Shown piece by piece: positions 16,088 through 25,721 of a stretch of 38,714 nucleotides of DNA. The position numbers and the translations under genes were made by a program. The stretch is taken from assembly GCF_000350145.1 (NCBI RefSeq), contig NZ_BAOL01000023.1, positions 1 to 38,714 on the forward strand. The letters are read 5' to 3'. Numbering within the stretch: the first letter of the stretch is position 1; each line of letters begins with the position of its first letter. Under the pieces are notes generated by a model. The model saw only the letters and a list, made by a program, of their open reading frames with translations, ran no database searches and was not told the DNA's origin. The stretch is from Ilumatobacter nonamiensis YM16-303 (lineage in GTDB: Bacteria; Actinomycetota; Acidimicrobiia; Acidimicrobiales; Ilumatobacteraceae).

Positions 16088-17029
16088 ATGACGCTAGGTG
16101 CCGGGGTCGACGAAGCCACATCACGGAACGGAGACACCCGTCTCACCGGATCTCGTCGTTACCCTTGCGTCATCAGCCAGGTCAGTTCAGTCTTCACGTG
16201 GGTCCGCAACGTCGTGATGGAGACCTACGGCGAATGGCGATCACACCGCACGATGCGGCTGGGAGCCGGCCTCGCCTACTACGGGCTGTTCGCAATCGTG
16301 CCGCTGGTCTCGATCAGCCTGGCCGTCGCCGGGCTCGTGGTCGATCAAGCGGACGTGAACGAGCTCGTTTCCTCGATCCTCAGCAACGTGTTCGACACCG
16401 ACGCGAGCGAGTTCTCGTCGGAGGTGAGCCAGACCATCGACTCGGGCTCCACCGCGAGTGGGCTCGGCGTGTTCGGCCTCGTCTCCCTGCTCCTGACGGC
16501 CTCGCTGGTCTTCGTCGCGCTGCAGGACGCGTTCGACACGATCTGGGAGGTGCCCGTTCCCCGTGGAACGTGGTCGAGCATGCGGCGCCGCTTCCTCGCG
16601 TTCGCCGTCGTGTTCCTCGCCGGGGCGGTGCTGATCGTGTCGTTCGCCGTCGTGAGCATCTCGAATCTGATCCGCTCCTTCGTGCCGGGCGATCACGCCC
16701 TCATCGACGTGGCCGCCGACGTACTCGCGACGGTCAGCTCCGGGGCCATCCTCGCGGCCGTCATCGCGATGCTGTTCCACTACCTGACCGCGCATCGGCT
16801 CACCTGGCGCGTCTCCGCCGTCGGCGGAATCGCGACCGCCCTGGTGCTGACGATCGGCAACCGACTGTTCGTGGAATACATGCGCCGGTACGGCGTGTCG
16901 TCGCTGGTCGGAGTGACCGGATCGATCCTCGCCGGCATCGTCTGGCTCTATGCAATCGCCCAGATCGTCCTCGCCGGAGCCGAACTGACCCGGACCCTTC
17001 AGAGCCGGTTGCCGGTTCGCTTCCGCTGA
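16088..17029 (+). CDS. YihY/BrkB-family inner-membrane protein
   Basis: The frame encodes 313 residues with about six transmembrane helices. Family signatures are LGAGLAYYGLFAIVPLVSIS near the N-terminus, the DAFDTIWEVP stretch, and the C-terminal LAGIVWLYAIAQIVLAGAEL. YihY/BrkB proteins were once called ribonuclease BN by mistake; their role is unclear, possibly membrane transport or envelope integrity. The N-terminus is uncertain. ATG 16088 adds 43 residues unlike the family, while ATG 16217 starts just before the conserved core. A TACCCT hexamer at 16160-16165 raises a third possibility discussed in the findings. It is divergent from the MscS gene. Confidence 0.85.
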   Translation: MTLGAGVDEATSRNGDTRLTGSRRYPCVISQVSSVFTWVRNVVMETYGEWRSHRTMRLGAGLAYYGLFAIVPLVSISLAVAGLVVDQADVNELVSSILSNVFDTDASEFSSEVSQTIDSGSTASGLGVFGLVSLLLTASLVFVALQDAFDTIWEVPVPRGTWSSMRRRFLAFAVVFLAGAVLIVSFAVVSISNLIRSFVPGDHALIDVAADVLATVSSGAILAAVIAMLFHYLTAHRLTWRVSAVGGIATALVLTIGNRLFVEYMRRYGVSSLVGVTGSILAGIVWLYAIAQIVLAGAELTRTLQSRLPVRFR

Positions 17030-17087
17030 CCGGTGGCGTGAGATGTCGTTCGCCGGACGAGATCCGAACTCCCTGGTGATTGCGCAC

Positions 17088-17093
17088 TAGCCT
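17088..17093 (+). promoter_or_regulatory. -10 element of the GlsB/YeaQ gene
   Basis: TAGCCT ends eight bases before ATG 17102, the leaderless layout seen elsewhere in the window. No good -35 is visible at the usual distance. Confidence 0.4.
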
Positions 17094-17101
17094 CAGCCGC
17101 C

Positions 17102-17395
17102 ATGTTGATTCTCGCACTCATCGTCGCCGGCATGCTCGTGGGCTGGCTGGCACAATTCATCCTCGGTCGCTCCGCAGGCCAAACCGACTGGATGATGGCG
17201 TTCGTGGCCGGAATCGTCGGATCCTTCGTTGGCGGACTCCTGTTCAGCCTGATCAATGGTGACGGCCTCGACATCGCGCCGAGTGGGCTCATCGGTTCAC
17301 TGGTGGGAGCGCTGATCGTCACGGCGATCTGGCAGGCGTACAACAAGAAGCAGCGCGCCGCCGATCGCGCCCCGGACGCCAAGCCCTGGGAGTGA
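17102..17395 (+). CDS. GlsB/YeaQ/YmgE-family small membrane protein
   Basis: The 97-residue protein has three hydrophobic, glycine-rich helices (LILALIVAGMLVGWLAQFIL, MAFVAGIVGSFVGGLLF, GLIGSLVGALIVTAIW) and a charged C-terminal tail. The length and glycine pattern match the GlsB/YeaQ/YmgE (transglycosylase-associated) family. Its members are often stress-induced and have no proven enzyme activity. Its place between a YihY protein and a channel module supports an envelope-stress role. Confidence 0.88.
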   Translation: MLILALIVAGMLVGWLAQFILGRSAGQTDWMMAFVAGIVGSFVGGLLFSLINGDGLDIAPSGLIGSLVGALIVTAIWQAYNKKQRAADRAPDAKPWE

Positions 17396-17499: not shown

Positions 17500-19680
17500 G
17501 TGGGTGATCGGACCCGATCTCGCAAACCGCTGCGTTGGGCCAGGTCGGTGTCGGTCGCGACTCGGCTTGCGATCTCGATCGTGGTGGTCAGCGTCATCTC
17601 GTTGGTCGTCGCGACGATCGTCGGCGTCAACACCGGACAGACGCTGAGCGACTCGATCGTCGATTCCCGGCTGGATGCGCTGCGTGCGTCCGCGGCAACG
17701 AACGTCGCCGCCGAGATGACGACGATCGAACGCGCCGCAGAGACACTGGGCGCCAGCCCGCAGGTGGCGCGGTCGATCGACGAACTCGCCGATGCGCTCG
17801 CCGACCTCGATGCGAATCCGCCCAGCGACCTCGAGTCGAACGTCGAGGACCTCGTCGATCAGTACGACGTCGAGTTCATCGAACCGCTGCAGGAGGCCGG
17901 CTTCGACGTCGTGCGTCGCGACCTGATCGACACCGACGACCTGGCATCGCTCCAGTTGCAGACCGCCTACTCGCTCGTGGACGACGACGCGGACTCGGCG
18001 CGCGACGTGGACGACGCGCGTGACGGCTCGGACTGGAGCGAGGTGCACCGGCGCGTGCATCCTCCGATCCGCAGCGTGGCCGATCGCCTCGAACTCGCCG
18101 ACGCATTCCTCGTCGAGCCCGACGATGCCACCATCGTCTACTCGGTCGAGAAGGGCCCGGACCTCGGCACCAGTCTCGACGTCGGCCCGTTCAGCGGCAC
18201 GGTGGTCGCCGGAGCGGTCGCATCCGTCATCTCCGACCCGTCCGCCGGCACCGTGATCAGCGATGTCAGTACCTACCTGCCCCAGGGGCTGCTGCCGGTC
18301 GGTGCCGTGGCGACGCCGGTCATGGACGGCGAGGAGCTCGCCGGGGTGGCCGTGCTGGTCTACTCGACGGAGCCGATCACCGATCAGTTGACGGCGGGTG
18401 GCGACTGGGACGCGAGTGGATTCCCGCCAACCGGCGAGACGTTCATGATGGCAGGAGACGGAACGATGCGATCCGAGCCCCGTTCGTTCCTCGAGGACCC
18501 TCGTGAGCACCTGACCAAGGCCGAGCAGACGGGTTCGATCGACGAGGACGGCCGTGTCCGCATCGAACGCTCGGGTACGACCGTGCTCACCGAGACCGCG
18601 ATCGGCGAAACCCTCAACGCAGCCCAGGACGACGACGAATCGGTCGAGGTGCGCACGTCGGTGATCGGCGACCAGGCCTACAGCTCGACCGAACCCGTAC
18701 CGCTCGACGGCGTCGAGTGGTACGTCGTGTCCGAGGTGGACGAGGACGTGATCCGCGAGCCGCTCGAAGATTTCGGCAAACGGTTGATCATCGGCGCGGC
18801 GATCCTGGTCGTCGTCATCGCGTTCGCCGCCGTCGCCTGGAGCGCGGCGATGATGTCGTCGATCCGCGAGATGAGCGAACGGCTCCGCACGTGGCGGACC
18901 TCCACGGGGCCGATCGACGTGCCCGAACGCAGCCCCGTCGAGATCGAGCGGCTCGCCGCGAGTTTCACCGAGATGGTGAACTCACTCGAATCGCAGCGGG
19001 CGGAGTTGACGGCCGCCAGGGAACGCCGGACCGAACTCCTGCAGTCGATGCTGCCGCCCCAGGTCGCGGAGCGGGTGATGAGCGGCGAACTCGAGACCGT
19101 GGAGGAGGTTCCGAAGGTCACGGTCGTGGTGATCGTCGTGGCCGGACTCGGTGAACTCGTCCGGCTCGGTCGAGACAGCGCGAATCGCGAGTTGGTCGAT
19201 CGCCTCACGGCCGAGTTGGACGAAATCGGCGAACGCCATGGGCTCGAACGGATCAAGATCGTCGGCGACGCGTACTTCGCCGTGTGCGGCCACAACCGTC
19301 CGTACATCGACCACGCGCCGCGCGCGCTCTCGTTCGCCGCGGATGCACAGGACGCCGTGCGGGAGCAGGGCACCGGGACCGACCACGGACTCGACGTGGT
19401 GATCGGGATCCACACCGGTCCGGTCAACGTCGGCATGACCCGCGAGACGGGGCTGGTCTACGACGTGTGGGGGCCGACCGTGTCCCGGGCACACGACCTC
19501 GCGCGGAGCGGCGGGCGCGGACAGATTCTCATCAGCGGACGGACCCACGCGTTGTTGCCCGACAGCGTGGTCGCCGAGCGTGTCACCGAGACCGAGACGG
19601 ACGGCGAACCGGGTGACGACGGCGACGACACGGACCTGGTGTTCGCCGTGTCGGCAGAGACGGTGGGGGGAACGGTGTGA
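17500..19680 (+). CDS. receptor-type class III cyclase homologue with degenerate active site (paralogue 1)
   Basis: The 726-residue protein has a membrane helix at about 20-42, a large extracytoplasmic sensor region (about 43-427, Cache-like in outline), a second helix from about 428, a HAMP linker, and a class III nucleotidyl-cyclase fold from about 510. Adenine-recognition residues K586 and D655 (YDVWG) and the second metal aspartate D590 (VGDAYF) are present. The first metal aspartate is V546, the transition-state asparagine is S662 and the arginine is D666. Catalysis is therefore unlikely, and nucleotide binding without turnover is possible. The gene overlaps the channel gene (GTGA). The start is GTG 17500, after a possible leader peptide. 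Confidence 0.85.
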   Translation: MGDRTRSRKPLRWARSVSVATRLAISIVVVSVISLVVATIVGVNTGQTLSDSIVDSRLDALRASAATNVAAEMTTIERAAETLGASPQVARSIDELADALADLDANPPSDLESNVEDLVDQYDVEFIEPLQEAGFDVVRRDLIDTDDLASLQLQTAYSLVDDDADSARDVDDARDGSDWSEVHRRVHPPIRSVADRLELADAFLVEPDDATIVYSVEKGPDLGTSLDVGPFSGTVVAGAVASVISDPSAGTVISDVSTYLPQGLLPVGAVATPVMDGEELAGVAVLVYSTEPITDQLTAGGDWDASGFPPTGETFMMAGDGTMRSEPRSFLEDPREHLTKAEQTGSIDEDGRVRIERSGTTVLTETAIGETLNAAQDDDESVEVRTSVIGDQAYSSTEPVPLDGVEWYVVSEVDEDVIREPLEDFGKRLIIGAAILVVVIAFAAVAWSAAMMSSIREMSERLRTWRTSTGPIDVPERSPVEIERLAASFTEMVNSLESQRAELTAARERRTELLQSMLPPQVAERVMSGELETVEEVPKVTVVVIVVAGLGELVRLGRDSANRELVDRLTAELDEIGERHGLERIKIVGDAYFAVCGHNRPYIDHAPRALSFAADAQDAVREQGTGTDHGLDVVIGIHTGPVNVGMTRETGLVYDVWGPTVSRAHDLARSGGRGQILISGRTHALLPDSVVAERVTETETDGEPGDDGDDTDLVFAVSAETVGGTV

Positions 19681-21167
19681 GCGGGTTCAGTTCGACCAGT
19701 TCGATCTGGGCGATCGTCGTCATCGTCATCGTTCCACTCCTCATCATCGCGACGGCCGAACTCGACGAACGACTCCGTCAGCGCGATTCACCGTTCCGTC
19801 GGGCTGCGGCGATGCTGCGCACCTGGACACTCCCGTTCTTCGCGATCTGGGCACTGCTCGTCCCGGTCCTCGGGGTCGAAAACGACTCGATCGCGGTCAG
19901 GATCGCGCTCACGGGGCTCCTGCTCTCGATCGCGGCTGCGGTGCAGCGGGCACTGCGGATCGGAGTCGACCGGACGCGGACGAAGCTGAGCGACGGAGGT
20001 CGTCGGAACGCTCCCGAACTGCTGCTGATGCTGCCGAAGCTCGCCGTCGTGCTCGTATCGGCGTGGCTCCTGATCGATTCGGTCTGGGGGATCGACCTGT
20101 CGGCGGCGCTGACGGCACTCGGGGTCACCTCGCTCGTGATCTCGTTCGCGCTCCAGGACACCCTCAGCGGCCTCGCCTCCGGGGTGCTGCTGCTCAGCGA
20201 TCAGCCGATCCAACCGGGTCATTGGATCGAGGTCGGCGACAACGAGGGCATCGTGGTCGACATCAACTGGCGAACGACCCGGATCCGCAACCGGGACGGG
20301 GACATGATCATCGTTCCCAACAGCGAACTCGCCCAGTCGAGCATCGTGAACCACACCGACATCGACTCGCGGACCCGTGTGGTCGTGTCGCTGACGGTCG
20401 CCTATGTCAACCCACCGACGTTGGCCAAGGCGATGCTGCTCGACGCCGCGCTCGGCACCGAAGGCGTCCTGGCATCACCACCGCCCGCAGTGCTGGTCAC
20501 GACGATCGACGACCCGTTGATGGGTTACGAGGTCCACATGTGGATCGACGACTACGCGATCGCCCCGCGCGTCAAGAGTGACTTCGGCGCCCTCGTCTGG
20601 TACCAGTCGCACCGTCACAACGTGCCGCTGCCGAGCCCGGCGCAGGATCTCTTCATCCACGACGGCGATGCCGTGGAGGCCGGGCCGGGGCACGCCGAGA
20701 TCCGCGTCGCACTCAGCCGATCGTCGCTGCTGTCGTCCCTCGACGAGGGCGACCTCGACCGACTGGCACAATCGACCTCGTACTCGCGCTACGCCGTCGG
20801 GGAGCTGATCAGCATCTCCTCCGCGAGCACGCGCGATCTGATGATGATCATCGAGGGCAACGCGCGCATCGTGCTCCGACGCCCCGACGGGACGGAGGTG
20901 ACGTTCGGCGAGTTGTCCGACGGGGACATCGCCGGGCTCCACGCCGAACAGTCGGTGAGTGGAAACGACATCGGGGTGCGAGCGGTCACCGACTGCCAGG
21001 TCGCGGTCGTGGAGGGCGACGCCATCGAGGAGGTCGCGAGTCGCAGCATCGACCTCGCCGCCGCATTCAACCGGATGGCTGCGGTTCGTCGGCGTCGGGC
21101 TGAGCGGATGATCGCGGCACCCGACGACCCGACCGAGGCCGACGACGACGGAGCGGCAGTTTCGTGA
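19677..21167 (+). CDS. MscS channel with C-terminal CNB-like fold (bCNG architecture), ligand site degenerate
   Basis: The 496-residue protein has membrane helices at about 8-26, 50-65, 78-94 and 115-135. The MscS pore and beta domain follow (LGVTSLVISFALQDTLSGLA, GHWIEVGDNEGIV, IVPNSELAQSSI). Residues about 350-465 align without gaps to a cyclic-nucleotide-binding domain. In the phosphate-binding cassette the conserved Glu is L421 (D-I-A-G-L421) and the conserved Arg is N430, while the later VRA-TDC pattern is intact. Channels of this design are known as bacterial cyclic-nucleotide-gated (bCNG) relatives of MscS. Here ordinary cAMP or cGMP binding is doubtful. Its start and stop both overlap the flanking cyclase-like genes by four bases. 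Confidence 0.85.
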   Translation: MSGFSSTSSIWAIVVIVIVPLLIIATAELDERLRQRDSPFRRAAAMLRTWTLPFFAIWALLVPVLGVENDSIAVRIALTGLLLSIAAAVQRALRIGVDRTRTKLSDGGRRNAPELLLMLPKLAVVLVSAWLLIDSVWGIDLSAALTALGVTSLVISFALQDTLSGLASGVLLLSDQPIQPGHWIEVGDNEGIVVDINWRTTRIRNRDGDMIIVPNSELAQSSIVNHTDIDSRTRVVVSLTVAYVNPPTLAKAMLLDAALGTEGVLASPPPAVLVTTIDDPLMGYEVHMWIDDYAIAPRVKSDFGALVWYQSHRHNVPLPSPAQDLFIHDGDAVEAGPGHAEIRVALSRSSLLSSLDEGDLDRLAQSTSYSRYAVGELISISSASTRDLMMIIEGNARIVLRRPDGTEVTFGELSDGDIAGLHAEQSVSGNDIGVRAVTDCQVAVVEGDAIEEVASRSIDLAAAFNRMAAVRRRRAERMIAAPDDPTEADDDGAAVS

Positions 21168-23254
21168 GCGGACGACGTGTGAAGCCGAGGCGCGAGTTGC
21201 GACGTCAGTTGGCACAGACGCTGATCGGTACGGCCCTGGTCTCATTGCTGACCATCGGAGCGGTGAATTTCCTCGCATCCCGCGCGCTGCTCGAGGAGGG
21301 CTCGCGTGATCAGCTGGTCGCCGTTGCGGAAGGTCGGATCGATTCGATCGAGAACGGGGTCGAGCGGGTGCTCGACCGAGCGTCGATCACGGCGACCGAC
21401 CCCGAGATGGCGGAAGCGCTCAGTGCCTTCACCGAGGCGTTCGAGGCACTCGAGGACGAGCAACTCGACGAGGCCGACGACGCGGTCGTCGACGAGTTCT
21501 ATGCCGACCGGGTGGTCGAACCCCTGAGAGAAATCGGGTTGGAGGTCGACGAGAACCGCATCCAGCCGACGGGAGCGGCCCGGTACCTCCAGAGTCGATA
21601 CACGATTCCTGCCGCCGAAGGAGTCGCCGCTCCGGTCGACGACACGGCGTATGCCGACGTGCTCGATCAGTACGACGACTACCTGTCGCAGTTCACCGAC
21701 CAGGCCGAGATCGATGACATCGTCCTGATCTCGTCCGACGGAACCATCGTGTACACCGCCAGCAAGTACGTCGACCTCGGCGCCGACCTGAACGACGGAC
21801 CGCTCGATGATTCGTCACTGGCGGTCGCGACGCTGGACCAACTCCCACGGGTCCGAGCGGGCGACTCCGTTCTGGCGGACTTCGAGTTGTACATCCCGGG
21901 TGGTGCGCGGCCGGCGGCCTTCGCACTCGCTGCGGTCGAGGACGGCTCGGAGGCGATCGGGACGTTGGGGATCCGGCTGTCGGTCGACGGACTCAACGCG
22001 ATCACCACGGCCGGTGGCGACTGGGAAGGCGTCGGAATGGGGGACGGCGAGACCTACGCGGTCGGCCCGGAATCCATCCTGCAGAGCGAGAGCCGACTCT
22101 GGATCGAGGATCCGCAGGCATATCTCGACCGGATCGACGACCCCGAGGTGGCCGGGGTCATCGAGTTCGTCGGTTCGCCGGTCGGCGTGCAGATCGTCGA
22201 CACCGAGCCGGTCCGGGTCGCCGCGGAGGGCGAGACGTTCGAGGGGAAGGCGACGAACTACGTCGGCGAGGACACGTTCAGCTACGCCCGCCAGGTCGTG
22301 GTCGGCGGAGCGCGGTGGGTCATCGTGGCCGACCAGCCCGCCGACGAGCTGCGCGCTCCGCTGTGGGACTACGCGAAGCGGCTCGGACTCGTCCTCGCGA
22401 TCGTGCTCCCCCTCGCCGCACTGGTCGGTTACGTGATCGCGAGTCGGCTCACCCGTTCGATCCCTCCCGTCGTCGACATGGCCGAATCGATCGCGGCCGG
22501 GGAACGCGACCCGGAGGTTCCCCCGCTCGGCTCGAACGAATTCGGAGACCTGGCCGTCCAACTCGAGCGGATGGCGGTCGAGCTCGGTCGCCAGGAGGCC
22601 GAACTGGACGAGGAGTTCGAGCAGCGGCGACGGCTGCTGCTCAGCGTGTTGCCCGAGCGTCTCGTCGACGGCTCCGGCGAGATCGGTGACACGCAGGAAT
22701 CGATCTTCGAGGGGACGGTCATCGCCGTGGTCGTCGAAGCGCACGGTGACCCGGCGGCGGAAGAACGAGTGGCCGAACTGCTCCGGCGTTTCGGCGCCGA
22801 GGCCGAAGCCGACGCAGAGGAATTCGACATCGAGCGGGTGCGCACGGCGGCCGACCGGTTCCTGTTCGTGTGTGGTGCAGAGAACGAGGACAACGGTGTC
22901 GATCAGGCGATCGGTTTCGCCGACGACCTGGCCGAACTCGCCGACCGACTGACCGACGATCCGGACGAGGCCCAGCTCGATGTGAGCATCGGGATGGCCA
23001 CGGGCGCGGTCGCGACGGGCGTGCTCGAGCGTGGAAGTCTGACGTTCACCGTATGGGGCGATCCGGTGCGACGCGCGATGGCGATCGTCTCGTTGGCCGG
23101 TTCTCGCGACACGTTCGTCGACGCATCGACGGCCCACGCGCTCCAGACCCGTTCGAGACTCGAACCTGCACCCCACGTCGTCGCGCTCGACGGGGAGACG
23201 ATGGAGCTGTTCGTGCTGCCGCGGAGCGAACACGAACCCGCGGTCTCGAACTGA
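21164..23254 (+). CDS. receptor-type class III cyclase homologue with degenerate active site (paralogue 2)
   Basis: The GTG overlaps the channel stop, giving 696 residues. The layout repeats paralogue 1: helix at about 18-37, extracytoplasmic sensor, helix at about 406-428, HAMP (SRLTRSIPPVVDMAESIAAG), and a cyclase fold from about 490. Shared sensor motifs (GGDW followed by a GETY/GETF stretch, then SR..LEDP/IEDP) show common ancestry. The cyclase site is more eroded: first metal Asp is E525, second metal Asp D564 is kept, adenine Lys is R560, adenine Asp is T629, and the transition-state Asn and Arg are R636 and A640. It is probably non-catalytic. The pair of receptors around one channel suggests signal input by domain contact. 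Confidence 0.82.
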   Translation: MSGRRVKPRRELRRQLAQTLIGTALVSLLTIGAVNFLASRALLEEGSRDQLVAVAEGRIDSIENGVERVLDRASITATDPEMAEALSAFTEAFEALEDEQLDEADDAVVDEFYADRVVEPLREIGLEVDENRIQPTGAARYLQSRYTIPAAEGVAAPVDDTAYADVLDQYDDYLSQFTDQAEIDDIVLISSDGTIVYTASKYVDLGADLNDGPLDDSSLAVATLDQLPRVRAGDSVLADFELYIPGGARPAAFALAAVEDGSEAIGTLGIRLSVDGLNAITTAGGDWEGVGMGDGETYAVGPESILQSESRLWIEDPQAYLDRIDDPEVAGVIEFVGSPVGVQIVDTEPVRVAAEGETFEGKATNYVGEDTFSYARQVVVGGARWVIVADQPADELRAPLWDYAKRLGLVLAIVLPLAALVGYVIASRLTRSIPPVVDMAESIAAGERDPEVPPLGSNEFGDLAVQLERMAVELGRQEAELDEEFEQRRRLLLSVLPERLVDGSGEIGDTQESIFEGTVIAVVVEAHGDPAAEERVAELLRRFGAEAEADAEEFDIERVRTAADRFLFVCGAENEDNGVDQAIGFADDLAELADRLTDDPDEAQLDVSIGMATGAVATGVLERGSLTFTVWGDPVRRAMAIVSLAGSRDTFVDASTAHALQTRSRLEPAPHVVALDGETMELFVLPRSEHEPAVSN

Positions 23255-23282: not shown

Positions 23283-23288
23283 CGGGTG

Positions 23289-23816
23289 ATGGCACTCGAC
23301 ACCTTTGTTTCATTCGTTGGCTCGTACGGGAGCGTCGATGACGCTCGTTCCGACTACGACGCCGTCAAAGCGCTGCACACCGAGCTGGGATTGCTCGACG
23401 CGTACGACGCGGCGGTGATCGAGCGGCGCGAGGACGGCAAGGTGAAGATCGTCAAGAAGCACGAGACACCGACCCGCGTCGGCGGAGTACTCGGAGGCGG
23501 CGTGGGCCTGGCGACCGGGTTGGTCGTCGCACTGTTCCCGTTCGCCGCGATCGGGTCCGGGCTGGTGCTCGGGACCACCGCGAGCGGAGCGTTGCTCGGA
23601 GCGGTGGCGGGGCACACGGTGGCCGGGATGAGTCGCCACGACCTGAAAGAACTCGGCGAGCAACTCGACGAGGGGAGCGCGGCGTTGATCGTGGTCGGCG
23701 TCCAGGACACCGGTGCACGGATCGAAGCGGCGATGAAGCAGGCCGACAAGCTCCAGAAGAAGGAACTCGCGGTCGACACCGAGGCGATCGAGGCCGACGC
23801 CACCTCGACCGACTGA
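23289..23816 (+). CDS. DUF1269-family membrane protein
   Basis: The 175-residue protein has an N-terminal soluble part (DARSDYDAVKALHTELGLLDAYDAAVI, then KVKIVKKHETPT). A glycine-rich hydrophobic hairpin follows (GGVLGGGVGLATGLVVALFP and GALLGAVAGHTVAGM), then a C-terminal helix rich in Lys and Glu. This order is typical of DUF1269, a widespread family of stress-associated bacterial proteins with no known activity. It converges on the DUF2510 gene 27 bases away. It may be independent of the channel operon, because it has its own -10 element. Confidence 0.85.
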   Translation: MALDTFVSFVGSYGSVDDARSDYDAVKALHTELGLLDAYDAAVIERREDGKVKIVKKHETPTRVGGVLGGGVGLATGLVVALFPFAAIGSGLVLGTTASGALLGAVAGHTVAGMSRHDLKELGEQLDEGSAALIVVGVQDTGARIEAAMKQADKLQKKELAVDTEAIEADATSTD

Positions 23817-24419: not shown

Positions 24420-25721
24420 GTGAGGGTGCGCATCCGACAGCTGATCGACGAACTCCGGCACCGTCTGCTGGTCGTGCCCGTGGCGTTCGTGATCGGTGGG
24501 ATCGTGCTCGCCCAGATCACCCTCTGGATCGACCGAACGGTCGACGACGACTCGATTCCGCAGGTGCTGTCGACGACCGTCGAGAGCGCGCGGTCGATCC
24601 TCACCGCGATCGCGGGCGGCCTGATCACCGCCATCACGCTCCTGTTGTCGATGATGCTCGTCGCGGTTCAGCTGGCGAGCTCTCAGTTCTCTCCGCGCAC
24701 GGTGCGGAACTGGATCGGCGACCGCACCCAGCAGGGTGCGATCGGCTTCGTCTTGGGGACGACGGTGTACTGCCTGCTGGTGTTGCGTCAGACCCGTACG
24801 GTCACGGACGGCGACCCACTCACTCCCAACATCTCGGTGCTGGTCGCCCTGGTACTCGGCATCGGCTCGTTGATCGCCGTCGTCCGCTCGGTCGACCAGT
24901 TGACCAACCGGCTGCGAATCGGTTCGGTCGCGTCGAACATCCTCGACGAAACGGTGGCGACCATCGAACGCAGGGAGCGGTTGATGCCGATCGAGGACCC
25001 GGCCGGCGGACGCCCGGGCGGACATCAGGACGGGACCGAGTCGGCACCGCCGTCGGGCGCTCATCCCGTCCTCATCGACAGCTCGGGATGGGTTCAACAG
25101 ATCGACGTCGACACGGCTCTGGTCGGTATCCCGGAAGGCTCGACGCTGTACCTGCCGCTGTCGGTGGGCGCGTTCGCCTTCCCGGACGCCCCCATCGCGT
25201 GGGTGTGGCCGGTCCCGATGGAGCCGCAGATGAGCGAAGAGTCCGTCGGTCGTGCGATTGCGGTCGGCACCGAGCGGACGATGCAGCAGGACGTCGGATT
25301 CGGCATCGTGCAGATGGTCGACATCGCGCTGCGCGCCCTGTCTCCGGGGGTGAACGACCCCAACACCGCGAGCGACCTCGTCGCCCACCTGGGGGTCACG
25401 ATGTTGAAGCTGTGGGAGCGGCCGGTGGCGCCGACGATGCAGGAGATGAAGGGCCGCACGGTGGTCCGTCGCGACCTCGACCACGCCGACTACCTCCATG
25501 CGGCATTCGACCCGGTCCGCATCTACGGCGCACAGGACCCGGGTGTTGCCTCCACGATGATCCGAACTCTCCAGACGCTGCGCGCCGAGGTCGAGCGGCG
25601 CGGGCTGCCGGGGCCCACCGAGCCGATCGACGAGGTGATCGGTCAGATCCTGCAGGCCGTGGATGCGAGTGAACTCGCAGACTTCGACAAGCAGCGCGTC
25701 GCCGCGCTCGTCACGAGCTGA
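24420..25721 (+). CDS. DUF2254-family membrane protein
   Basis: The 433-residue protein has four N-terminal membrane helices (about 18-34, 58-82, 102-118, 136-155), separated by the conserved QLASSQFSPRTVRNW loop. A large cytoplasmic domain follows, with the family motif ALSPGVNDPNTA. These match DUF2254, a family of predicted membrane proteins of unknown function. The GTG at 24420 lies seven bases after a CAGACT hexamer (24407-24412), consistent with a leaderless start. Its last 11 bases overlap the 3' end of the oppositely oriented flavoprotein gene, with no terminator between them. Confidence 0.88.
   Translation: MRVRIRQLIDELRHRLLVVPVAFVIGGIVLAQITLWIDRTVDDDSIPQVLSTTVESARSILTAIAGGLITAITLLLSMMLVAVQLASSQFSPRTVRNWIGDRTQQGAIGFVLGTTVYCLLVLRQTRTVTDGDPLTPNISVLVALVLGIGSLIAVVRSVDQLTNRLRIGSVASNILDETVATIERRERLMPIEDPAGGRPGGHQDGTESAPPSGAHPVLIDSSGWVQQIDVDTALVGIPEGSTLYLPLSVGAFAFPDAPIAWVWPVPMEPQMSEESVGRAIAVGTERTMQQDVGFGIVQMVDIALRALSPGVNDPNTASDLVAHLGVTMLKLWERPVAPTMQEMKGRTVVRRDLDHADYLHAAFDPVRIYGAQDPGVASTMIRTLQTLRAEVERRGLPGPTEPIDEVIGQILQAVDASELADFDKQRVAALVTS

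Follow-up and report, generated by a model that had tools for sequence, protein, structure and literature searches.

A 38,714-nucleotide stretch of DNA from Ilumatobacter nonamiensis YM16-303 (the window) carries three overlapping plus-strand genes (17500-23254) that encode two pseudo-cyclases, PC1 and PC2, on either side of an MscS-type channel with a C-terminal cyclic-nucleotide-binding (CNB) fold. The module is a conserved bacterial gene set in which components of a cyclic-nucleotide pathway link an ion channel to sensors facing the exterior. Family matches would label the proteins adenylate/guanylate cyclases and cyclic-nucleotide-binding channels; judged by their residues, they are probably neither. 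The reading we favor, with a probability of about 60%, is a messenger-less receptor-channel complex in which the pseudo-cyclases would gate the channel through contact with its pseudo-CNB domain. No pseudo-cyclase/MscS-CNB module was described in the titles and abstract openings listed for the literature searched, subscription papers aside.

The gene order described in the earlier note, cyclase homologue, MscS/CNB channel, cyclase homologue with four-base overlaps, is confirmed, and all three genes lie on the plus strand. The channel and PC2 start at GTG codons within the GTGA that closes the preceding gene, and the three-gene operon is predicted to be translationally coupled. The features are as follows.

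17500-19680, plus strand: PC1, 726 aa, GTG start; TM, extracellular sensor, TM, HAMP-like region, pseudo-cyclase
19102-19596, plus strand: PC1 pseudo-cyclase domain, aa 535-699 (Pfam, 85.6 bits; AF2 model)
19135-19137, plus strand: V546, PC1 first metal-Asp position (alignment)
19255-19269, plus strand: K586 to D590, PC1 Lys and second metal Asp, both retained (alignment)
19483-19497, plus strand: S662 and D666, PC1 Asn/Arg transition-state positions (alignment)
19677-19680, plus strand: GTGA overlap of four bases, PC1 stop and channel start
19677-21167, plus strand: MscS-type channel with C-terminal CNB-fold domain, 496 aa
20157-20357, plus strand: MscS beta domain, aa 161-227 (Pfam, 77.8 bits)
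20697-21086, plus strand: pseudo-CNB domain, about aa 341-470 (Pfam cNMP_binding match; AF2 model)
20937-20966, plus strand: L421 in place of the canonical Glu and N430 in place of the canonical Arg, phosphate-binding-cassette positions (alignment)
21087-21107, plus strand: basic C-terminal helix, R471, R473, R474, R477, candidate contact site
21164-21167, plus strand: GTGA overlap of four bases, channel stop and PC2 start
21164-23254, plus strand: PC2, 696 aa, GTG start; TM, sensor, TM, HAMP, pseudo-cyclase
22730-22732, plus strand: V523, PC2 first metal-Asp position (alignment to relatives)
22853-22855, plus strand: D564, PC2 second metal Asp, retained (alignment)
23069-23083, plus strand: R636 and A640, PC2 Asn/Arg positions (alignment)

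The Pfam Guanylate_cyc profile (cut-off 21.9 bits) matches PC1 at 85.6 bits and PC2 at 41.0 bits, and both proteins possess the cyclase catalytic fold; the structure comparison covered PC1, for which the predicted AF2 monomer model aligned with the solved cyclase 1azs_A (Z 24.5, rmsd 2.4, 184 residues aligned). The best PDB sequence matches of PC1 were 4p2m and 7yz9, the latter titled Rv1625c. The HAMP profile (Pfam cut-off 25) scores above threshold in PC2 (30.6 bits) and below it in PC1 (20.7 bits), and is matched at E≤0.01 by 25 of 44 upstream PCs. At the same E value dCache_1 is matched by 35 of the 44, window PC1 not among them, and six of seven upstream PC examples score under the Pfam cut-off for this domain. 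The PC1 sensor is tentatively assigned to the dCache type by family membership, not from its own score.

Active class III cyclases require two metal aspartates together with a transition-state Asn and Arg, and residues at these positions were assigned by alignment to solved cyclases and to relatives. PC1 has V546 and D590 at the metal positions and S662 and D666 at the Asn/Arg positions, so that the earlier assignment of V546, S662 and D666 is borne out. The corresponding residues of PC2 are V523 and D564, and R636 and A640; the last two had been named correctly, while E525, previously taken for the first metal position, was wrong, since the column falls two residues earlier. The retained K586, D590 and D564 were absent from that account. 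The adenine-Asp column is occupied by P659 in PC1, and D633 is kept in PC2. Because neither subunit has the first metal Asp, no PC1:PC2 heterodimer restores the site, as had been argued, and a composite active site in the window is rejected. Both PC1 and PC2 are predicted from these substitutions to lack catalysis.

The channel shares the bCNG architecture of an MscS pore and a C-terminal CNB fold. Its CNB part scores 28.7 bits against cNMP_binding (Pfam cut-off 27.5), and the AF2 monomer model of this part aligns with 4muv_B (Z 17.1, rmsd 2.7, 135 residues aligned). The Glu and Arg that hold the cyclic phosphate in bCNG channels are L421 and N430 here, in agreement with the earlier claim, and the domain is predicted not to bind cyclic nucleotides. 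Among 26 aligned three-gene channels, the pocket positions are variable, whereas a TDC motif and the basic C-terminal helix are near-invariant (Arg at the R471, R473, R474 and R477 columns in 26/26, 25/26, 26/26 and 25/26); the MscS pore core is well conserved.

The proposed check against characterised cyclases and CNB domains upheld the residue loss in the window, with V523 in place of E525, and the loss extends across the sampled family. Not one of 99 readable module cyclase domains (101 sampled, two cut by contig ends) has both metal aspartates, Asn and Arg; both metal aspartates occur in three, and both Asn and Arg in five. The three are PC2 domains (L057, L059 and L060), and a composite site is rejected there as well, as neither partner has Asn and Arg. 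Three-gene PC1s have the first metal Asp in 0/34, the second in 30/34 and the Lys in 26/34; f89 domains keep the first, with Asn for the second and Gln for Arg (10/10); mycobacterial-type PCs have lost the second metal Asp and the Lys; and two gammaproteobacterial PCs (L213 and L214) depart from the canonical set at just two of the six positions, that of the first metal Asp and that of the Lys. On the channel side, Glu and Arg occur together in none of 68 readable module CNBs (three channels, cut or N-masked, excluded), and the first cassette Glu is missing from 66.

Set against controls, and bearing in mind that members are related and the counts phylogenetically non-independent, all four cyclase residues are present in 28 of 31 domains from outside the module against 0 of 99 within it, a contrast beyond chance. 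The outside sample leans towards intact because it was drawn from the best-scoring 37 loci of well over 100 matches listed. It leaves out module domains (L003, L007, L110), a repeat (L009) and unalignable loci (L114, L116); the exceptions are L008 (Met for the first metal Asp, and Thr for Asn in its other domain) and L119 (Thr for Asn). Of 13 alphaproteobacterial MscS-CNB channels unconnected with the module (those with a readable CNB among 29 non-module loci), nine have both Glu and Arg; Glu or Arg is missing from the other four, so CNB loss extends beyond the module. Other CNB rows aligned from genomes G000 and G006 have both residues in 13/13, with two proteins counted twice (L257/L259, L261/L266); 14 of 18 matched loci were aligned, one being the module's own, and L258, L260, L263 and L264 were omitted. 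Every other CNB aligned from the window's genome is intact.

A search for the same gene order in related genomes, as had been suggested, gave 70 channels. Each of the 68 for which upstream sequence exists is preceded by a cyclase homologue, and the other two start at a contig edge; nine duplicate loci, a weak match (L095, no PC found) and a partial channel (L027) were omitted. The channel frame opens no later than the PC stop except in L093 and L201, where it opens directly behind that stop. A four-base overlap is possible in 42/68 copies, including the window. A PC also lies downstream in 36 copies, with a four-base channel/PC2 overlap in 31 of these, again including the window. Conversely, 17 further loci were opened on the strength of a PC match alone, and all 17 carry the channel (G964, G211 and many partial matches were left out). 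By record titles, the module occurs in Actinomycetota, Pseudomonadota and Campylobacterota; two-gene forms are present in Proteobacteria. No fourth gene recurs in more than 6 of 51 loci compared (E 1e-10; many with short flanks), and the channel had no match in a plasmid collection at E 1e-20.

The pseudo-domains are under purifying selection, with omega of 0.05-0.33 for the upstream pseudo-cyclase (18 pairs) and 0.06-0.44 for the CNB (16 pairs with finite dS), the latter often above that of the pore. The term "eroded" used in the earlier note is misleading because the non-canonical state is common to all sampled members in several phyla and selection is purifying; recent erosion within one lineage is rejected. 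In a quick tree, PC1, PC2 and the two-gene PCs each form a group set off by a single branch, with SH-aLRT values of 100, 100 and 98, and parsimony suggests that the metal site was lost at least two separate times. PC1, PC2 and the channel are inherited jointly (Mantel r 0.97 for PC1-PC2 and 0.93 for PC1-channel), which would also follow from plain operon linkage.

Several known systems share parts of this arrangement. The bCNG channels of the MscS superfamily match the channel in architecture, but in the 68 readable module members the Glu and Arg never co-occur, and a pseudo-cyclase receptor adjoins the channel. Rv1625c/mammalian-type class III cyclases share the cyclase fold, and receptor cyclases the sensor and HAMP; unlike them, the window pair is without first metal Asp, Asn and Arg. 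A CNB fold in a channel is also found in KCNH (EAG) proteins, whose KCNH1 chains turn up in the CNB sequence search. The KCNH CNB homology domain gates without cyclic nucleotide and contacts its own PAS domain, not a pseudo-cyclase, and the protein is, in contrast, a voltage-gated K channel. An NCBIfam model for Family 2B encapsulin matches the channel CNB part with 41 bits in the window and with 57 bits in L213, where it exceeds the CRP model, and scores below that model in L203 and L206; PMC12407261 describes an encapsulin insertion that does not bind cyclic nucleotide and has divergent pocket residues, although it sits inside a capsid-type shell protein rather than a channel.

Two-gene forms probably occur in mycobacteria too, as the Rv2435c-Rv2434c pair. 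As in the window, a PC lies directly upstream of an MscS/CNB gene in mycobacterial-type genomes (10/10 opened; L203-L211 and L216); the pair differs in having no PC2 and in the f89 residue pattern. In L206, alone among the loci, the pair lies ~1.4 kb from a frame that matches, with 580 bits across 296 residues, the glutamine-dependent NAD synthetases 3dla/6ofc; these solved proteins come from mycobacteria, as does this gene order. A 2004 actinobacterial cyclase survey is indexed as naming both Rv2435c and Rv2434c, and Rv2435c is called a double-Cache adenylate cyclase in PMC4822843. If orthology holds, our results suggest that this protein, counted among mycobacterial adenylate cyclases, may not make cAMP.

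Since the messenger-making and messenger-reading sites both look chemically unfit, the signal probably travels by direct protein contact. The translationally coupled operon would yield a single receptor-channel complex. Its receptors, PC1 and PC2, are ancient paralogues whose cyclase-fold output has presumably stopped making cAMP or cGMP. A sensor signal would pass through HAMP to a pseudo-cyclase dimer (a putative PC1:PC2 heterodimer, or homodimers in two-gene forms), which would act on the CNB-fold domain beneath the MscS-type pore, perhaps via the basic C-terminal helix, and open or close the pore by direct contact; the channel would retain the architecture of a cyclic-nucleotide pathway, minus the messenger. 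Contact gating as proposed in the earlier note thus fits the data and remains the best reading, with contact and gating themselves being what we infer. At about even odds, we place the broader proposal that a receptor-cyclase/gated-channel pathway became a hard-wired complex family-wide, with synthesis lost at least twice, reading lost throughout and the folds serving as contact modules, and with the duplicated receptor of three-gene forms an obligate heterodimer through which two external signals converge on the channel. Counted against a contact complex are the Lys and second metal Asp kept in most three-gene PC1s, so that nucleotide may still bind, the three PC2s with both metal aspartates, the often higher omega of the CNB than of the pore, and the possible gating of MscS relatives through tension alone.

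That same retention, K586 and D590 in the window and the 26/34 and 30/34 counts, is what speaks for a ligand-switched pathway, in which the pseudo-cyclases bind nucleotide unconverted or the CNB fold binds another small molecule to gate the channel. The trypanosomatid PKA regulatory subunit offers a precedent, its CNB domains having switched from cAMP to nucleosides according to PMC10959531; 6hyq is among the fold matches of the channel CNB model. The nucleoside signature with its ribose-binding glutamates, the cassette Glu and a second two residues on, is absent from the window, where L421 and A423 occupy these positions. The missing first Glu in 66/68 CNBs and the loss of the second metal Asp and Lys in mycobacterial-type PCs also argue against such a switch, which we consider unlikely. 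The unusual ligand allowed for in the earlier note is weakened as one common ligand because the pocket varies while the TDC motif and basic helix are near-invariant.

Residual or altered catalysis, with at least one cyclase domain still yielding cyclic nucleotide through replacement residues, is consistent with the intact predicted fold of PC1, the three PC2s with both metal aspartates and the two-position change in L213 and L214. It is improbable given the complete set in 0/99 domains, and because the CNB side is equally non-canonical, the module would offer no obvious reader for any messenger made. Plain tension gating of an MscS-type channel, with the fusion and neighboring genes decorative and non-signaling, would account for the conserved pore core, and mechanosensitive behavior is reported for bCNG channels; the PC pairing in 68/68 readable cases across several phyla, the co-inheritance of PC1 and PC2 and the purifying selection on the pseudo-domains make it very improbable. 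An assembly or decay artefact, that is, pseudogenes in a MAG, is scarcely credible: the window does come from a 399-contig assembly, and L046, L075 and L080 carry split frames of PC1, PC2 and both PCs, respectively, through frameshift or assembly error, but the window frames are open, omega is far under 1, and modules occur in one-contig genomes (three-gene in G006, two-gene in, for example, G818) and in the record of an isolate, Actinotalea sp. M2MS4P-6 (three-gene, L053).

If contact gating is true, the module illustrates how signaling by a diffusible messenger can be reduced to a protein complex, pseudo-cyclases gain a use in bacteria, and the module would be a prokaryotic receptor-gated channel on an MscS scaffold. 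In L247, an MscS-CNB gene with Glu and Arg is overlapped by that of a cyclase in which none of the six canonical residues is changed, and this live alphaproteobacterial counterpart provides a ready comparison; a second neighborhood, L248, had no match to the cyclase model.

The module is composed of three overlapping genes, in which two paralogous sensor proteins with cyclase-like domains, PC1 and PC2 (25-27% identical), flank an MscS-type channel that carries a CNB domain at its C-terminal end:

17500-19680, + strand: PC1 gene, first of the three
19677-21167, + strand: MscS/CNB channel gene, with its GTG start within the GTGA that ends the PC1 gene
21164-23254, + strand: PC2 gene, with its GTG start within the GTGA that ends the channel gene

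PC1 and PC2 share a layout of TM helix, extracellular part, second TM helix, HAMP-type linker and cyclase domain. Mean pLDDT is 87 for the AlphaFold2 (AF2) model of PC1 and 86 for that of the channel; the modeled cyclase part of PC1 resembles solved cyclases (1azs_A; Z 24.5, rmsd 2.4, 184 aligned), and the modeled CNB part resembles experimental CNB structures (4muv_B; Z 17.1, rmsd 2.7, 135 aligned). On the CNB part, the NCBIfam model for encapsulin outscores the CRP model in the window channel and in L213, a gammaproteobacterial module locus, and scores lower than it in L203 and L206, two mycobacterial-type two-gene loci (f89 group).

Residue columns for PC1 and PC2 were read by alignment to solved cyclases and relatives, and the assigned columns correspond to the established catalytic and binding positions of the cyclase and CNB families. 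PC1 has V546 at the first metal Asp (D1), D590 at the second (D2), K586 at the Lys, P659 at the adenine Asp, and S662 and D666 at the transition-state Asn and Arg; the corresponding residues of PC2 are V523 (D1), D564 (D2), R560, D633, R636 and A640. In the channel CNB, L421 replaces the Glu and N430 the Arg of the phosphate-binding pair. The residues that the earlier note did call agree with the alignments except at D1 of PC2, which it placed at E525, two residues after V523.

These losses extend across the family. We aligned 101 module cyclase domains, 99 of them readable at D1, D2, Asn and Arg, and none of the 99 has all four: D1 is present in 15, D2 in 64, both in three, and Asn plus Arg in five. 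Three-gene PC1 proteins keep D1 in 0/34 and D2 in 30/34, while the f89 group keeps D1 in 10/10 and has Asn at D2 in all ten. An ancestor with both metal Asp residues is the simplest starting point, which would imply two or more separate losses of the metal site. Among the 68 of 71 module channel CNBs that could be read, Glu is found in two, Arg in 11 and both in none. The least altered members seen are the gammaproteobacterial PCs of L213 and L214, in which only D1 and the Lys differ among the six positions.

As controls, the best-scoring PF00211 matches from 13 genomes were taken, and removal of module members and one repeat left 32 cyclase domains; all four residues are present in 28 of the 31 readable, D1 in 30 and D2 in 31. 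Alphaproteobacterial MscS-CNB channels outside the module have Glu plus Arg in 9/13 and lack the pair in 4/13 (Fisher 2.7e-9 versus the module, a value that ignores relatedness). Other CNBs from the window's own genome and a one-contig relative have the pair in 13/13 aligned rows, two of which are repeats, in an alignment that covers 14 of the 18 matched loci. In the alphaproteobacterial locus L247 (4127-7611, - strand), a cyclase whose six key positions are all canonical (D K D D N R) overlaps an MscS-CNB gene having Glu and Arg; judged by these residues, it is a predicted live cyclase-channel pair representing the same idea with a different sensor, which by eye may be CHASE2-like. The window's own genome also encodes a two-cyclase-domain protein (L008/L009, contig C180), with Met at D1 of the second domain and Thr at Asn of the first, for which a split active site is possible.

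Across 26 three-gene channels, differing residues occupy the columns of the canonical Glu and Arg, while E376, G394, A396, A436, D439 and C440 are invariant in all 26 and R471, R473, R474 and R477 are kept in 26, 25, 26 and 25. Variable pocket positions beside near-invariant residues elsewhere in the CNB and C-terminal part suggest a surface for protein contact and not a site for a shared ligand. The simplest account would be a receptor-channel complex without a messenger, in which the contact itself is predicted: the sensor signal would pass to HAMP, from HAMP to the pseudo-cyclase dimer, from the dimer to the pseudo-CNB, and from there to the pore. An unconverted nucleotide could still serve as a structural or regulatory ligand, which is conceivable because PC1 retains K586 and D590. 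Since the module lacks residue features tested for active cyclases and bCNG channels, we file it, on sequence grounds, as putatively working like a cyclic-nucleotide pathway but not being one.

Mycobacterial Rv2435c-Rv2434c is the probable identity of the f89 loci: in L206 a nearby frame matches solved NAD synthetases (580 bits over 296 residues), and both those solved proteins and this gene order are mycobacterial. The component types, bCNG channels and receptor cyclases, are already known. One paper lists Rv2435c as a double-Cache adenylate cyclase (PMC4822843), and another classes it with Rv1625c as mammalian-type (PMC3961136). Precedents for the pseudo-CNB are family 2B encapsulins (PMC12407261) and trypanosomatid PKA (PMC10959531), which have the CNB fold without cyclic-nucleotide binding. 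No title or abstract opening listed in the literature searches concerned this module or the joint loss at both ends.

The channel alignment matches 12/397 sampled genomes of the order (E 1e-40) and PC2 matches 8/198 (E 1e-10), own genome included in both; with so few matches among those sampled, the spread is patchy, and the sampled genome of the same genus gave no module match. A named-genome scan returned 50 loci (L046-L095), by record title mostly Acidimicrobiia, the others being an Actinotalea isolate plus records titled as gammaproteobacterial, campylobacterial, rhodobacterial or burkholderial. One of the 50, L095, is a weak MscS match only, without a PC. The PC alignment matches 41/274 genomes in the class of G397, many over the sensor or cyclase part only, and 39/396 in the phylum. 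In G606, G515, G543 and other genomes the sensor-HAMP match ends before the cyclase domain, so this part probably serves other outputs.

Gene order is conserved. The channel lies downstream of the PC in 17/17 new loci examined from the PC-alignment searches, and 68/70 channels have an upstream PC with no gap between frames, the remaining two beginning at a contig edge; a 4-base overlap is possible in 42/68. A downstream PC follows 36 channels, 31 with the 4-base overlap. This third gene is present in the window, L030, L043 and loci from the L046-L080 set, titled mostly Acidimicrobiia (L050, Acidobacteria), and absent from the proteobacterial, f89 and f117 loci. At E<=0.01, dCache_1 matches 35/44 upstream PCs and does not match the window PC1. 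Split PC frames occur in L046 (PC1), L075 (PC2) and L080 (both), through frameshift or assembly error, and one MAG (G094), possibly a mixed bin, holds two module copies on different contigs (L066, L072).

No fourth gene is common to more than six of 51 loci compared. The window neighbors are:

16088-17029: BrkB-type membrane protein
17042-17395: open frame just 5' of PC1; among 51 loci, only L054 and L071 have a related frame in their flanks
23286-23816: DUF1269 protein, outside the compared neighbor set
24420-25721: DUF2254 membrane protein

The BrkB and DUF2254 frames have no match in the flanks of other module copies at E 1e-10; in L051 there is a match to a frame running antisense to BrkB.

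By a simple counting method, with dS saturated in some pairs, omega is 0.05-0.33 for the upstream pseudo-cyclase (18 pairs), 0.11-0.38 for the PC2 pseudo-cyclase (four pairs with finite dS) and 0.06-0.44 for the CNB part (16 pairs with finite dS), where it often exceeds that of the pore. In a quick unrooted tree of 91 PCs, PC1, PC2 and the two-gene PCs are each separated from the rest by a single branch (SH-aLRT 100, 100 and 98), and the PC1 and PC2 sub-clades are similar. The module of L053, from the isolate record of Actinotalea sp. M2MS4P-6, nests among Acidimicrobiia-type copies, a position that looks like whole-operon transfer. Distance matrices correlate at 0.97 for PC1-PC2 (27 loci) and at 0.93 for both PC1-channel (29 loci) and channel-PC2 (30 loci).
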